Shown one piece after another: positions 26,218 through 33,599 of a DNA stretch of 64,000 nt. The translations under genes and the position numbers were made by a program. The stretch is taken from contig NC_010718.1 in NCBI RefSeq assembly GCF_000020005.1, forward strand, positions 439,001 to 503,000, given 5' to 3'. How positions within the stretch are numbered: position 1 is the first letter of the stretch; every line of letters starts with the position of its first letter. The stretch comes from Natranaerobius thermophilus JW/NM-WN-LF (GTDB lineage: Bacteria > Bacillota > Natranaerobiia > Natranaerobiales > Natranaerobiaceae). The notes under the pieces were generated by a model. That model saw nothing but the letters and a program-made list of their open reading frames with translations, ran no database searches and was not told the origin of the DNA.

Positions 26218-27003
26218 ATGGAAATCATTGATTTTAAACAAAGTAATCTGAATCGGGTTTACAAATATAATGAGGAGTTAAAAAAAACACAAAGTAACTT
26301 CAAGCAGTTAAAAAGTAGACTTTTAAAGAAACAACTGTTAAAAATAATAACTTTTAACAAATCAAAAAAGCGACAAATACAAGAGAATATATGCTATGAT
26401 AAAACTGAACTGGACAAGCTTGAACAGCAAATATTTAGACTTACAGAAAAGATAACAGCTCTTGAAAAGGGTGTAGCAGGTGAAAAATTAGTAAGAGAAC
26501 ATCTTAAGGAGCAATTATCTGACAGCTATTACTTAATAAATAACTTTTATTTTTTTAATAATTCGCCCTGTGAAATAGATCATATTATTGTTGGTCCAGC
26601 GGGTTTTGTGATAGTTGAGACAAAACATTTGGGAGGAAAACTATTTGTTCATCCTTGTCATTATAAATGGTTGCGGGCACCTTTGAATAACCCTGATGCT
26701 ATTAAAAAACCTATGAAAAATCCATTAAAACAATTGGAGAGAAATGTGGCGGAGTTTAAGAGTTTATTATCAGAAGCCGAAATGGGAGAACTACCCGTGC
26801 AAGGGGTCTTGGTCTTTCCAAGAAACAGTTGTTTGCTGTCAAATCGAGGATGTGGTGAAGAATTTCCTGTATTATATCATGATGAATTAATAGAGTATAT
26901 CGATAGTTTAGAAAAATTAGACCATTTAAGTGATATCAGCAGGCTAAATTGTTTGGTTGACAACTTAATTGATTTAGCTAATCAAAAAAATAAACGAACA
27001 TAA
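26218..27003 (+). CDS. NERD (nuclease-related) domain protein
   Basis: A 261-residue protein. A basic, lysine-rich coiled-coil N-terminus (about residues 15-90) leads into the NERD domain: GVAGEKLVREHLKEQL, then EIDHIIVGPAGFVIVETKHLGGKLF. This is the D-x(n)-ExK nuclease-like core, with Asp in EIDH and Glu-x-Lys as ETK. NERD proteins are proposed DNA-processing enzymes; function is not established. The gene starts 33 nt after the MBL gene. Its stop codon overlaps the poly-U end of the minus-strand structured RNA that follows, so the two transcripts converge. Confidence 0.82.
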   Translation: MEIIDFKQSNLNRVYKYNEELKKTQSNFKQLKSRLLKKQLLKIITFNKSKKRQIQENICYDKTELDKLEQQIFRLTEKITALEKGVAGEKLVREHLKEQLSDSYYLINNFYFFNNSPCEIDHIIVGPAGFVIVETKHLGGKLFVHPCHYKWLRAPLNNPDAIKKPMKNPLKQLERNVAEFKSLLSEAEMGELPVQGVLVFPRNSCLLSNRGCGEEFPVLYHDELIEYIDSLEKLDHLSDISRLNCLVDNLIDLANQKNKRT

Positions 27004-27413
27004 AAAAGAGCCCACAATGACCTGCGGTCGGGCCAGTGTAGATTCTATGTTAGCCCTGTGCAACCTCTCGGGTACACAGGACCATGTCAGAACCTACACT
27101 AGCCGTTTCCCCAACCGTGATGGATCCCTTTCCAAAGAGCTATAAGAAATCTCTCGACCCCTTATAACCCCTTAAGGAACCCATCACGATTTTGGCTCGA
27201 TCCCTACAGATCTCAGGTGACCTCTAAATAGTAGTTCCGACTATTCAGAAGCCAGTAATTGACCTGTAGGGATCTTCCCTCCGGCCGATGCCAGGCCTTA
27301 AAAAAGACCCAGCATCGACCTTCGGCCGGCCGCTTAGGAGCCTTATCCTGTAAGACCCCTAAGCGACCTTGGCTCGGTCATTGCGAACCCTCATTACTTA
27401 ATATGGACACATT
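27002..27413 (-). ncRNA. Candidate large structured noncoding RNA with a closing stem and five arms
   Basis: No gene is seen here, base composition is clearly more GC-rich than the surroundings, and nearly every base can pair. A 13-pair closing stem joins 27378-27392 with 27008-27020. Within it are five arms, read on the minus strand: 27365-27331 (15 pairs, loop CAGGA), 27316-27287 (11 pairs), 27274-27199 (14 pairs plus an inner 15-pair helix), 27188-27116 (15 + 13 pairs, GAGA tetraloop) and 27100-27035 (12 pairs plus inner helix). Over twenty positions are G-U on the minus strand and would be A-C on the plus strand, so the minus strand is the transcribed one. Six U residues (27007-27002) end it. 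The RNA class is unknown to me. Confidence 0.75.
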
Positions 27414-27426
27414 TTAAGTAATTATA
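27393..27426 (-). promoter_or_regulatory. Promoter -10 and inverted repeat ahead of the structured RNA
   Basis: On the minus strand TATAAT occupies 27426-27421, about 30 nt before the closing stem, with an AT-rich tract upstream but no good -35. The 9-bp inverted repeat ATTACTTAA/TTAAGTAAT (27393-27401 and 27414-27422) overlaps the presumed start site and could be an operator or a 5' hairpin. The binding protein gene starts divergently at 27470. Confidence 0.45.
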
Positions 27427-27469
27427 CAAATTTTTAATAAAAAAATTTAAAAAGTTGGGTGAATCTACT

Positions 27470-28291
27470 ATGACTCGAATTGAATTAGCTATGTTTTTAT
27501 TAATTACCTTAGTTTTTATGAGTGTTCTAACTGCTTGTCAACAAAATGAGGATAAAGATTTGATTATGGCAACTACTACAAGCGTCTATGACTCTAACTT
27601 AATAGAGACTTTAATGGATGAATACTATGAGCAAGAAGGAGTAAAGGTTCAGATTACAGCTAGAGGAACTGGTGCTTCTTTGGATTTAGGGAAACGGGGT
27701 GATGTAGATCTCGTGCTGGTTCATGACCCGAAACAGGAAATTGAAATGCTTGAACAAGGGTATTTTATTGAGAGACATGAGTTAATGGAAAATGACTTTA
27801 TAATTGTAGGCCCAGCAAATGACCCTGCGGGAATTAGTGAAGTAAAGGAGGTAGATGAAGCTTTACAAGCCATCATAGAATCTGAACAAGAGTTTATCTC
27901 GCGTGGGGATGATTCAGGGACCCATAGAAGGGAACGCCAGTTATTTGAGGACTTAGGTGAATTTCCTGAAGAAGATAAGTATTTATCCGTTGGGCAAGGG
28001 ATGGGTGAAACTTTGAGAACTGCTGAAGAAAAGCAAGCCTATACCCTGTCAGATAATGCAACCTATACATCTTTACAAGCAAGTAATGAGAATTTCGAGC
28101 TAGAAGTGTTATATGAGGGAAATGGTAAACTAGAAAATATTTATAGTATACTTATACCGCAAATTGATGATTTACCTGAAACTAGAACAGAAAAAATTGA
28201 AAATCTAGTAGAATTTTTATTGTCAGAAGAGGGGGAAAAGATTATTTCTCAATACCAAAAAAATAATAATGTCTTATTCCGTCCCAAGTAG
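27470..28291 (+). CDS. Tungstate-type ABC transporter substrate-binding lipoprotein (TupA-like)
   Basis: A 273-residue exported protein with a signal peptide ending in the lipobox LTAC (Cys about residue 23). The mature start LIMATTTSVYDSNLIETLMDEY and the motif TARGTGASLDLGKRGDVDLVLVHDP match TupA tungstate-binding proteins; EQEFISRGDDSGTHRRE is also typical. TupA captures tungstate or molybdate for the TupB/TupC permease and ATPase. Neither is adjacent, so the importer must be completed elsewhere. ATG 27470 is chosen over an upstream TTG because it begins a normal signal peptide. The cofactor genes from 30190 make a tungsten/molybdenum role sensible. Confidence 0.85.
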   Translation: MTRIELAMFLLITLVFMSVLTACQQNEDKDLIMATTTSVYDSNLIETLMDEYYEQEGVKVQITARGTGASLDLGKRGDVDLVLVHDPKQEIEMLEQGYFIERHELMENDFIIVGPANDPAGISEVKEVDEALQAIIESEQEFISRGDDSGTHRRERQLFEDLGEFPEEDKYLSVGQGMGETLRTAEEKQAYTLSDNATYTSLQASNENFELEVLYEGNGKLENIYSILIPQIDDLPETRTEKIENLVEFLLSEEGEKIISQYQKNNNVLFRPK

Positions 28292-30413: not shown

Positions 30414-31655
30414 TTGTTCCAGGTCATATCAGTAGAAGAAGCTATTTCGAAAGTCACTGCAAATATAGATAAGTATTTTGAAGGTCTTGAGTCAGAGCAA
30501 ATCAAGTCAGAAAATGCCTTAGGAAGGGTGTTAGCTCAAGATATAAAAGCTCCCAGTGACTTACCTCCTTTTTCTAGGTCCACCGTAGATGGTTATGTAG
30601 TCAAGGCTAAAGATACCTTTGGTGTTTCGGAATCTTTACCTGCGGTGTTATTTAATAAAGGTAAGATAGAAATGGGAGAAGAGCCCCATAAAACTTTGAA
30701 TCAAGATGAAACTATGGAAATTTCTACAGGAGGTATGCTTCCTTCAGGTGGAGATGCTGTAGTTATGCTTGAGGATGTGGAGACCTTCGATGATAATTCT
30801 ATCATTGTTAACAAATCCGTAGCTAGAGGCGAAAATGTCATCGAAAAAGGGGAAGATACTCAAGAAGGTGTCACTGTATTACGAAAAGGGCATAGACTAA
30901 GATCTCAAGATATAGGTGCTTTAGCTGCCTTAGGAATTTTAGAAATATCTGTTTATCATCAACCTGTAATAGGAATAATCTCAACGGGGGATGAATTAAT
31001 ACCACCTGAAAAACCTCTATCTGGCGGTAAAATTAGAGATATCAATTCCTGGGCTTTAAGTGCTGCTGTCACAAAACTAGGTGGAAAACCTATACAGTAC
31101 GGAATAATACAAGATGAGCCACAATATTTTCGAGAAAGCTTTGACAAGGCAGTTACTCAATGTGATATGGTGATTTTATCTGGGGGCAGTTCTGTTGGCA
31201 CTCGTGATCTGACAGCTAAGACCATAGACTTGGGAGAACCAGGCATTATTTTTCATGGTGTTTCAGTTAAACCTGGTAAGCCAACTATATTTGGAATCGT
31301 TGATAATGTCCCTGTATTTGGCTTATCGGGAAATCCCGTCAGCGCTATGGTTACCTTTGATTTATTTGTTAAACCTGCCATTTATGGAATATCGGGTGTT
31401 GCTAATTTTGGTAGAGACTGGTTTGAAAATATAACTAAGGCCAGATTGGCTCGTAATATATCTTCAAAAGGTGGTAGAGAAGACTTTGTCAGAGTTTCAT
31501 TAAAAGGTGAACCAGGAGAGTTTCCGGAAGCTTTCCCAGTGTTAGGAGAATCGGGTTTAATTTTTACACTTGTCGAAGCTGATGGATTGGTGCGCATTCC
31601 CCAAAACACTGAAGGTTATTCTCAAGGTGAAATAATAGAAGTGATCAAGTGTTAA
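30414..31655 (+). CDS. moeA: Molybdopterin molybdenumtransferase MoeA
   Basis: A 413-residue MoeA-family protein, which inserts molybdenum or tungsten into adenylated molybdopterin. Recognisable segments in order are ALGRVLAQDIKAPSDLPPFSRSTVDGYVVKA (domain I/II junction), EISTGGMLPSGGDAVVMLED, GIISTGDEL, SGGSSVGTRDLT (MPT-binding loop), VKPGKPTIFG and GLSGNPVSAMVTFD, then a C-terminal beta domain. The TTG start at 30414 follows AAGGAGTGG. A second MoeA homologue follows after 15 nt, then a MoaB/Mog protein, forming a cofactor-finishing operon. Two MoeA paralogues are often linked to separate Mo and W use, but this is not proven here. Confidence 0.92.
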   Translation: MFQVISVEEAISKVTANIDKYFEGLESEQIKSENALGRVLAQDIKAPSDLPPFSRSTVDGYVVKAKDTFGVSESLPAVLFNKGKIEMGEEPHKTLNQDETMEISTGGMLPSGGDAVVMLEDVETFDDNSIIVNKSVARGENVIEKGEDTQEGVTVLRKGHRLRSQDIGALAALGILEISVYHQPVIGIISTGDELIPPEKPLSGGKIRDINSWALSAAVTKLGGKPIQYGIIQDEPQYFRESFDKAVTQCDMVILSGGSSVGTRDLTAKTIDLGEPGIIFHGVSVKPGKPTIFGIVDNVPVFGLSGNPVSAMVTFDLFVKPAIYGISGVANFGRDWFENITKARLARNISSKGGREDFVRVSLKGEPGEFPEAFPVLGESGLIFTLVEADGLVRIPQNTEGYSQGEIIEVIKC

Positions 31656-31670
31656 TGAGAGGTGATGAAC

Positions 31671-33599
31671 ATGAAAAAAAATAAAAAAAGGAAAGTTTAT
31701 CTAGATAACACCCCTTTAGATGAGGCCTTAGAGACTTTTTTCAATGCTCTTTCTGAGGTGGAAGCGGATACTTTAGCAGGAGAAACTATTCTAACTGAGA
31801 ATGCCCATGGACGAATTACAAAAGAACCTGTCTTTGCAAAGGTTTCTTCACCCCATTATCATGCTTCAGCTATGGATGGAATAGCCGTTGATTCTAAAAA
31901 AACTCAAGGGGCTTCATTGAGAAACCCAAAGATATTAACAACCCCTCAAGATGCAGAATTAGTTGATACTGGATCACCTATACCTCATGATAAAAATGCT
32001 GTCATTATGATCGAGGACGTTGACTGGGCTGGCAGGAATGAGGTGGAAATTGTCGAGTCGGTGGCGCCTTGGCAGCATGTTAGGACTATAGGGGAAGATC
32101 TGGTAGCTACCGAATTAATTGTTCCGGCTGGGCAAAAACTTCGTCCTGTTGATATTGGGGCGATACTGGCTGGAGGTGTGACAGAAGTAACTGTTGAACC
32201 TAAACCTCGAGTTGCTGTAGTACCTACTGGTACTGAACTTGTTGAACCAGGAGAAAGATTAAAACCAGGGGATGTAGTTGAATTTAACTCTCGAGTTTTA
32301 TCAGGTTTAGTTTCTCAATGGGGTGGTAAACCTTCTAAGGAAGATAAACTACCCGATGATTACGATTTAATTGTGGAAACAATAAAAAGTTTATTACCGC
32401 AGAATGATTTGATTATAGTAAATGCAGGCTCTTCAGCGGGGGCACAAGATTATACCTATCAAGCTATTAAAGATATGGGAGAAGTGATTTCCCATGGTGT
32501 GGCGATAAAACCAGGAAAACCAGTGATTCTTGGTATCATTGATAAAACTCCTGTCATCGGTATTCCCGGCTATCCGGTATCTGCTGTGCTTGCCATGGAG
32601 TTATTCGTTAAACCTTTGCTGTATAAATGGCAAAACAAATCGGTACCCAAACAGGAAGAAATAACGGCTAAAATATCTAGGAGGGTAGTATCTTCTTTTA
32701 ATGCCCAAGAGTACCTCAGAGTGAAAGTTGGAAAAGTAGGGGATAAGTTTGTAGCGACTCCTTTAGGAAGAGGAGCTAGTATGATCATGTCTCTGGTTAA
32801 ATCCGATGGTATGATTGTAATTCCCCAGATGCGAGAAGGTTTGGAAAAAGGTGAAGAGATAGATGTCAAGCTCCACAGGTCAAAAGAAAATATCGAAAGT
32901 ACAATTGTAGGAATAGGAAGTCATGATATCTCCTTAGACATTTTATCCAATGAACTGTCCAAAAGGTACCCGCCTTATACTTTATCTTCAGCCCATGTCG
33001 GTAGCATGGGTGGGCTTATGGCTTTAAAACGTGGTGAGGCTCATATGGCAGGAGTACACCTGTTAGACCCAGAAACTGGAGAATACAATATCCCTCATAT
33101 AAAAAAATACCTGTCCGATCAAGATATTATACTGGTTAATTTAGCTTATAGAGAACAAGGATTATTGGTAGCTAAGGATAATCCCAAGAACATTTACGGC
33201 CTGGAGGATTTAAAAAGAGAAGATGTAAAAATGGTTAATCGTCAAAAAGGGGCAGGCACTAGAATATTACTTGATTATAAGTTAGAGGAACTAGGCATCT
33301 CTTCTGAACAACTTACAGGTTATGATAGAGAGGAAGTTAATCACCTATCTGTGGCAGCTGCTGTCAATGGAGGTACTGCGGATTGCGGTCTAGGAATTAG
33401 AGCAGCTGCAGAAGCTTTAGATTTGGACTTTATACCTGTATCCAAAGAACGTTATGACATCGCAATTCCTCGTGATTTTTGGGATTGGGAAGGTATCCAA
33501 CATATACTGAAGGTGATTAGAAGTGAGGAGTTCAAGCACTCTATTGATGAATTGTCGGGATATGATCTATCTGCAAGTGGTGAGATATTACACTGTTAA
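31671..33599 (+). CDS. MoeA homologue fused to a periplasmic-binding-like domain
   Basis: A 642-residue two-part protein. Residues about 1-405 are a complete MoeA: SPHYHASAMDGIAV, PTGTELVEPGERLKPGDVVEFNSRVL, NAGSSAGAQDYTY and VKPGKPVILGIIDKTPVIGIPGYPVSAV. Residues about 420-642 form a substrate-binding-like domain (GIGSHDISLDILSNEL, SSAHVGSMGGLMALKRGEAHMAGVHL, VNRQKGAGTRILLDYKL, AAVNGGTADCGLGIRAAA) without a signal peptide. The same fusion is known in other anaerobes and is thought to sense or present an oxyanion or cofactor. ATG 31671 follows GAGGTGA. It sits between moeA and the MoaB/Mog gene. Confidence 0.9.
   Translation: MKKNKKRKVYLDNTPLDEALETFFNALSEVEADTLAGETILTENAHGRITKEPVFAKVSSPHYHASAMDGIAVDSKKTQGASLRNPKILTTPQDAELVDTGSPIPHDKNAVIMIEDVDWAGRNEVEIVESVAPWQHVRTIGEDLVATELIVPAGQKLRPVDIGAILAGGVTEVTVEPKPRVAVVPTGTELVEPGERLKPGDVVEFNSRVLSGLVSQWGGKPSKEDKLPDDYDLIVETIKSLLPQNDLIIVNAGSSAGAQDYTYQAIKDMGEVISHGVAIKPGKPVILGIIDKTPVIGIPGYPVSAVLAMELFVKPLLYKWQNKSVPKQEEITAKISRRVVSSFNAQEYLRVKVGKVGDKFVATPLGRGASMIMSLVKSDGMIVIPQMREGLEKGEEIDVKLHRSKENIESTIVGIGSHDISLDILSNELSKRYPPYTLSSAHVGSMGGLMALKRGEAHMAGVHLLDPETGEYNIPHIKKYLSDQDIILVNLAYREQGLLVAKDNPKNIYGLEDLKREDVKMVNRQKGAGTRILLDYKLEELGISSEQLTGYDREEVNHLSVAAAVNGGTADCGLGIRAAAEALDLDFIPVSKERYDIAIPRDFWDWEGIQHILKVIRSEEFKHSIDELSGYDLSASGEILHC

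Follow-up and report, generated by a model that had tools for sequence, protein, structure and literature searches.

In the 64,000-nt stretch of Natranaerobius thermophilus DNA that was analysed here as a whole (the window), a NERD-domain gene (26218–27003, +) and a gene for a TupA-like solute-binding protein (27455–28291, +) flank, on the 5′ and 3′ side respectively, a gap which carries on its minus strand the gene of a structured RNA, antisense to both neighbours (Table 1). As originally predicted, the gap contains no long open-reading frame and is GC-rich, with a G+C of ~0.50 compared with 0.26–0.40 in its surroundings. The extent first given to the RNA (27002–27413) holds at one end: the RNA itself runs from ~27392 to 27002, whilst 27393–27427 is occupied by its promoter. 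It is present as a single copy in the N. thermophilus genome, and the multiple dispersed near-identical copies of a repeat or transposon end are absent. Elsewhere in the window, a purine riboswitch (RF00167, 38868–38969, +, 81.7 bits) is the sole Rfam match, and downstream of the TupA-like gene, at 30414–33599 (+), two adjoining open-reading frames appear MoeA-like by eye, the second with an apparent fused C-terminal substrate-binding-like domain; with the TupA-like gene, these look like a molybdenum/tungsten cofactor neighbourhood.

Table 1. Features of the structured RNA gene and its promoter (window coordinates).
Feature	Position	Strand	Basis
Structured RNA gene; transcript of ~390 nt predicted from the start of P1 to the U-tract	27002..27392	-	fold z −18; covariation, 74 sequences <85% identical; predicted start 5–9 nt past −10 box
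−35 element GTATA, sigma-F/sigma-G type	27423..27427	-	family-wide GHATA box, fixed 14-nt spacing
−10 element GTCCATATTA, sigma-G type CATNHTA	27399..27408	-	aligned family flanks
P1 closing stem, 16 bp	27376..27391 (5′ strand) with 27007..27022 (3′ strand)	-	covariation
Linker J1/2 GAGCCAA	27369..27375	-	family consensus GAGCNAA
Arm P2 (27368–27354 with 27342–27328)	27328..27368	-	covariation
Linker J2/3 GGCCGAA	27321..27327	-	family alignment
Arm P3 (27320–27306 with 27297–27283)	27283..27320	-	covariation
Linker J3/4 GGAGGGAA (family GCCGGMGGGMAGAT)	27275..27282	-	family alignment
Arm P4 with inner helix P4′ (27253–27240 with 27232–27219)	27199..27274	-	covariation
Linker J4/5 GAGCCAA	27192..27198	-	family alignment
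Arm P5 with inner helix P5′ (27171–27156 with 27151–27136), GAGA tetraloop	27113..27191	-	covariation
Linker J5/6, diverged here (family GAGCAAA)	27105..27112	-	family alignment
Arm P6 with inner helix P6′ (27084–27071 with 27064–27051)	27031..27104	-	covariation
Linker J6/1 CGACCGCA (family GNAGCGNA)	27023..27030	-	family alignment
U6 tract at 3′ end, terminator-like	27002..27007	-	sequence

The minus strand of 27002–27413 folds to −237.4 kcal/mol, against −133.6 ± 5.8 kcal/mol in dinucleotide shuffles (z −18, none of 100 as low), whereas the plus strand reaches only −135.6 kcal/mol (z −6.4) since G-U accounts for 31 of the 154 pairs; the strand asymmetry that had been claimed is real, and the wobble pairs are more numerous than the twenty-odd first counted. 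All five arms that had been described are present, with P4, P5 and P6 carrying inner helices (P4′, P5′ and P6′) for a total of nine helices, and the closing stem P1 was recognised correctly but is longer (16 bp) than the 13 pairs proposed. In most species a variable hairpin lies within P5, GNRA loops cap P5′ and P6′ in most sequences, and beyond P1 a further, separate hairpin with a T-run is present in many homologues.

Relatives of the RNA were found by blastn in three other genomes at 80%, 67% and 72% nucleotide identity, and one relative (in genome G004) keeps the same plan with most arm sequences different. A covariance model of the 5′ third built from three sequences (R1) matched 140 of 398 genomes sampled from the host's phylum, Bacillota, and a second model built from 17 diverse sequences (R2) matched 154 of them. 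A DNA pattern search of 84,980 species genomes returned at least 119 stretches; pattern, closing stem or model score mark about 109 of the 119 matches listed as genuine, whilst ten scoring <20 bits were dropped as chance, and as these all fall outside the anaerobic spore-former groups (e.g. in Microbacterium, Nocardia and Paenibacillus) they double as a check on specificity. Carriers among the matches listed include Moorella, Desulfofundulus, Desulfotruncus, Pelotomaculum, Sporotomaculum, Carboxydocella, Fervidicola, Thermosediminibacter, Mahella, Acetivibrio and Anaerospora. About 107 full-length homologues were gathered, ranging from 305 to 526 nt: the 305-nt form (L100) is missing P4′ and P6′, the 315-nt form (L065) is missing P6, and in the ~520 nt Acetivibrio forms the variable parts are enlarged, with P1, P2, P3 and the linkers kept as a core across all size variants. 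A phage or plasmid origin was considered and blastn found no match; the only pattern match on a viral contig (L178) is a chance one (12.6 bits), and low-identity blastn matches in genomes G032 and G018 (L012, L013) are not the RNA, true copies of which lie elsewhere in those genomes.

Some genomes hold several copies (L086, L102, L142, L110, L061), with four loci in the Pelotomaculum PtaB.Bin104 MAG, two copies ~510 nt apart in Sporotomaculum, two copies 2.6 kb apart in UBA2598 and up to six covariance model matches in G040. A genome of the same family as N. thermophilus (G001) has a decayed remnant (L010, 1501–1696) that has lost the 5′ third and most of P6; its matches are to 124–324 and 401–412, neither R1 nor R2 finds an intact copy in this genome, and SpoIVA is present. 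A c-di-GMP-I riboswitch (46.2 bits; L010, 1188–1270, −) adjoins the decayed copy, and two of the 20 loci scanned have a tRNA-Sec gene within a few kb of the RNA (L052, 747–843; L129, 7050–7145).

Covariation in related genomes confirmed the structure. In an alignment of the 107 full-length sequences, of which 74 share <85% identity with one another (mean 61%), an APC-corrected G statistic served to rank all 78,606 column pairs: the first 50 pairs all fall inside the consensus structure, 73 of the 141 structure pairs outrank every non-structural pair, and 96.7% of cells in the alignment are paired. As a check independent of the alignment's folding, 105 relatives of <70% identity (mean 58%) were compared with the minimum-energy fold computed from the N. 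thermophilus sequence only, and 93.8% of their cells were paired compared with 31–42% when the fold was slid. Both bases had changed in 4,789 of these cells and the pair was kept in 94.7% of them, so the changes between homologues do not break the helices. A control on the 17 diverse sequences gave 96.4% paired against 26–49% slid (0/500 shuffles). Covariation between helices, outside the secondary structure, was also observed (alignment columns 17/384, 17/352, 323/352 and 202/285), and possibly reflects tertiary contacts or clade effects. The central claim of the original prediction, an undescribed minus-strand structured RNA under selection, thus stands: it is without an Rfam match, in single copy, and its homologues keep the helices. 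The distribution, the wobble register and the forespore-type promoter lay beyond that prediction, in which the promoter was misread. The same data bear on whether the sequence is instead a mobile or selfish element, a palindromic MITE- or REP-like repeat with hairpins that mimic RNA. Such an element would account for the absence of synteny between genomes and for the multiple copies in the Pelotomaculum MAG and G040, but it is very improbable given that N. thermophilus has a single copy, that substitutions compensate each other at RNA pairs, that the conserved G-U pairs would not pair as DNA, and that the RNA has a dedicated promoter.

Consecutive helices are joined by linkers of 7–8 nt with the consensus GAGCNAA in J1/2, J4/5 and J5/6 and variants elsewhere, a family consensus which supports the early impression that the linkers had been duplicated. 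With pairs numbered from the junction, the six helices that radiate from it carry U-G at pair 3, G-U at pair 12 and U-G at pair 14 (less marked at pair 3 of P2 and at pair 14 of P4 and P5), whilst the inner helices exhibit a mirrored code of G-U at 2, U-G at 4 and G-U at 13, shifted by one in P5′. Taking a conserved wobble as G-U or U-G in ≥60% of sequences gives 25 such pairs, 22 of which keep to the 3/12/14 or 2/4/13 register (P 8e-18 by the hypergeometric test, to be read as a measure of tightness and not as an independent test, because the register was read from the same alignment); the other three, all in P5′, have the same spacing shifted by one. The spacing of 9 + 2 = 11 bp is one A-form turn. 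Wobbles arising from chance drift, or from the mere breaking of a DNA palindrome, would not hold fixed positions, and invariant wobbles one A-form turn apart in every helix are one of the rare cases in which three-dimensional helix packing or periodic minor-groove recognition can be read directly from sequence.

The TATAAT upstream of the RNA, originally taken as its promoter box, is not a housekeeping −10: it overlaps GTATA (27427–27423), the −35 of a sporulation-type promoter. The N. thermophilus −10 is CATATTA (27405–27399) and the whole promoter, GTATA-N14-GTCCATATTA, is sigma-G-like with a modest match (score 7.8), as the second G is absent from its −10. Aligned flanks of the homologues show a conserved GG-N-CATAATA directly upstream of P1. 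Using the B. subtilis consensus sequences, the sigma-F −10 (GGNNANAMT) is present in 52 of 106 upstream flanks, where ~4.6 would be expected, whilst 47 of the 106 contain the sigma-G −10 (CATNHTA), against an expected 8.5. Flanks aligned on the −10 only exhibit a −35 ATA box (0.90/0.92/0.88) at a fixed 14-nt spacing and in a GYATA/GHATR register, and as the −10 mostly ends 5–9 nt ahead of P1, transcription should start at P1. A matrix trained on the promoters of the RNA scored ≥10 upstream of 16 of 30 SASP genes, a classical forespore class, in carrier genomes; shuffles gave 1.1 and randomly chosen positions 1.35. We strongly infer from these promoter motifs that the RNA is made in the forespore under sigma-F/sigma-G; SigF and SigG promoters overlap in C. 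difficile (PMC7438776).

The RNA is also almost confined to genomes that carry sporulation genes. SpoIVA is present in 336 of the 398 sampled genomes, in 137 of the 140 R1 carriers (the three exceptions are incomplete or contaminated) and in 150 of the 154 R2 carriers (Fisher P 7e-10, with the genomes not independent and the association partly phylogenetic); of the four R2 carriers that lack it, two have a completeness of 61–75%, a third is contaminated at 5%, and in the fourth the match is weak. About half of the genomes with SpoIVA (186 of 336) have no detectable copy of the RNA and the remnant in G001 is decayed, therefore the RNA, though probably useful to sporulation, is not required for it generally. 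In four genomes of two families (G045:C6, G363:C27, G299:C1 and G321:C45) the RNA lies ~1 kb from spoIVA on the opposite strand. A constitutive housekeeping ornate RNA, as OLE and raiA are, could carry a promoter that merely resembles the forespore type; many carriers are anaerobes typical of OLE too, and a TATAAT-like sequence occurs upstream in 21 of 106 flanks (8 expected). This is improbable, however, as the consensus of both boxes, the distance between them and their position relative to P1 all fit sigma-F/sigma-G, the same matrix finds SASP promoters, and almost all carriers have SpoIVA. A sigma-70 scan found no housekeeping promoter, and the TATAAT reading was dropped given the GG-N-CATAATA and GHATA boxes in the aligned flanks.

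No gene is a conserved neighbour of the RNA, the commonest family (ileS) being found at 8 of ~100 homologous loci, probably through local synteny. The RNA should be its own transcription unit, since it is antisense to both neighbours in N. thermophilus and no neighbour family exceeds 8 of the ~100 loci. A cis-regulatory leader or riboswitch would be co-directional with, and upstream of, a conserved gene; here the orientation is antisense, and the ~100 loci hold no conserved neighbour.

We favour, at a probability of roughly 0.6, a trans-acting forespore ornate RNA of endospore-forming Bacillota, with a compact, G-U-packed body that would persist and act as the scaffold or store of a partner; both the packing of the helices and this role are put forward as a hypothesis. 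The RNA would be transcribed from its own gene in the forespore under sigma-F/sigma-G and would act in trans, with six equally built helices arranged around a single junction by GAGCNAA-type linkers and extended by three coaxial inner helices. Wobbles one helical turn apart would offer guanine amino groups to the minor groove at repeated positions, and the G-U-N-U-G elements may form two-fold symmetric minor-groove sites for docking between neighbouring helices or between copies of the RNA. Such docking would yield a compact, very stable particle, presumably acting as a long-lived scaffold or partner store during spore maturation or dormancy. More tentatively, the nine equal helices might form an RNA helix bundle, perhaps a homo-oligomer, through minor-groove G-U contacts and be kept through dormancy as a structural RNA of the endospore core, which, if true, would make a structural component of the core out of RNA, not protein.

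The main rival to the scaffold is a protein-binding array, or sponge, in which each helix binds a double-stranded-RNA-binding protein reading two successive minor grooves, or the linkers bind a small regulator (cf. CsrB/CsrA), with titration in the forespore; it predicts a multi-copy RNA-binding partner. Proteins of this kind have a two-minor-groove footprint, which is fitted by equal helices of 14–17 bp with conserved wobbles 9–11 bp apart, and the number of modules varies, the 305-nt forms being without inner helices and one 315-nt form without P6. We nevertheless consider an array rather unlikely, as the linkers and closing stem vary no more than the arms do, a constancy beyond what a string of beads needs, the linkers are without the repeated GGA of CsrA-type hairpin loops, and no partner gene is found nearby at ~100 loci. 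The many GGA hairpin loops of CsrB-type RNAs are likewise not found, the loops being variable or GNRA and the consensus without a repeated GGA loop. Less likely again is a forespore base-pairing sRNA whose linkers and loops pair with mRNAs (SASP, spo0A) and whose arms only stabilise it: the promoter is of the forespore type and there is a precedent in Bvs196, which is reported to bind the spo0A and sspN-tlp mRNAs and to affect heat and UV resistance (PMC9147052), but the present RNA is nearly all paired, its sole conserved single strands are the 7–8-nt linkers, and a seed regulator needs no nine helices with a fixed wobble register.

A large, ancient and highly ordered RNA is found in more than a third of the sampled genomes of the phylum, yet is absent from Rfam and the open-access literature searched. 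None of the families in Rfam 15, with tmRNA, RNase P, SRP, 6S, HEARO and T-box among those considered, reached its gathering threshold in the RNA of the window, and the Rfam 15 covariance models found no match to it in 23 homologous loci (the first three homologues and 20 further ones). The best sub-threshold match, Arrc08 (23.9 bits, E 2e-4, cut-off 219), reflects generic hairpins. The covariance models of OLE (presumably among the 4227 Rfam models scanned), raiA, ROOL and GOLLD matched none of the scanned loci, and open-access literature on 26 genomes, OLE, ornate RNAs and forespore sRNAs held nothing that matched (paywalled papers and preprints lie outside this scope). The RNA class is new by the measure of this open-access literature, and is set apart from Bvs196/S547 by description only. 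It represents a new ornate RNA with a predicted tie to a definite developmental stage, the forespore, and because of this tie its function and timing are directly testable in cultivable species.

Two forespore RNAs of other bacteria are the closest in expression. CsfG of Bacillaceae (ylbG-ylbH) is reported to be forespore-restricted, under sigma-F/sigma-G and conserved in endospore formers (PMC9147052, PMC3574147), with a length of 136 nt and conserved CU-rich loops and interhelical stretches (PMC3574147). The likeness lies in the sigma-F/sigma-G forespore promoter, judged for the present RNA from promoter sequence alone; in place of 136 nt and CU-rich loops the present RNA has ~390 nt (305–526 across the family), G/A-rich GAGCNAA linkers and G-U-marked helices. 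Bvs196/S547 of Bacillus is transcribed under sigma-F and mainly sigma-G, is 294 nt with a predicted −82 kcal/mol, and has conserved stems and variable loops within Bacillus (PMC9147052). Both it and, by predicted expression, the ~390 nt RNA are independently transcribed structured forespore RNAs, differing in length in a comparison made by description only. The raiA motif/ModT RNA, also a structured noncoding RNA widely conserved in Bacillota, belongs to another Rfam family that matches none of the scanned loci, and was examined in C. difficile in a paper largely concerned with sporulation (PMC11706538). ROOL and GOLLD assemble into RNA-only particles (PMC12286853). They resemble the present RNA as large ornate bacterial RNAs of unknown function, and are separate families, the present RNA having no Rfam match. 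To our knowledge, neither ROOL nor GOLLD has a periodic wobble code or a forespore promoter. OLE differs in being ~600 nt and membrane-linked with OapA/B/C partners, compared with ~390 nt and no OLE match here, but it too is a large ornate RNA of anaerobic or extremophilic Bacillota, and of the known structures its dimer, which cryo-EM work describes as a bundle of pipes (PMC12286853), offers the closest analogue.
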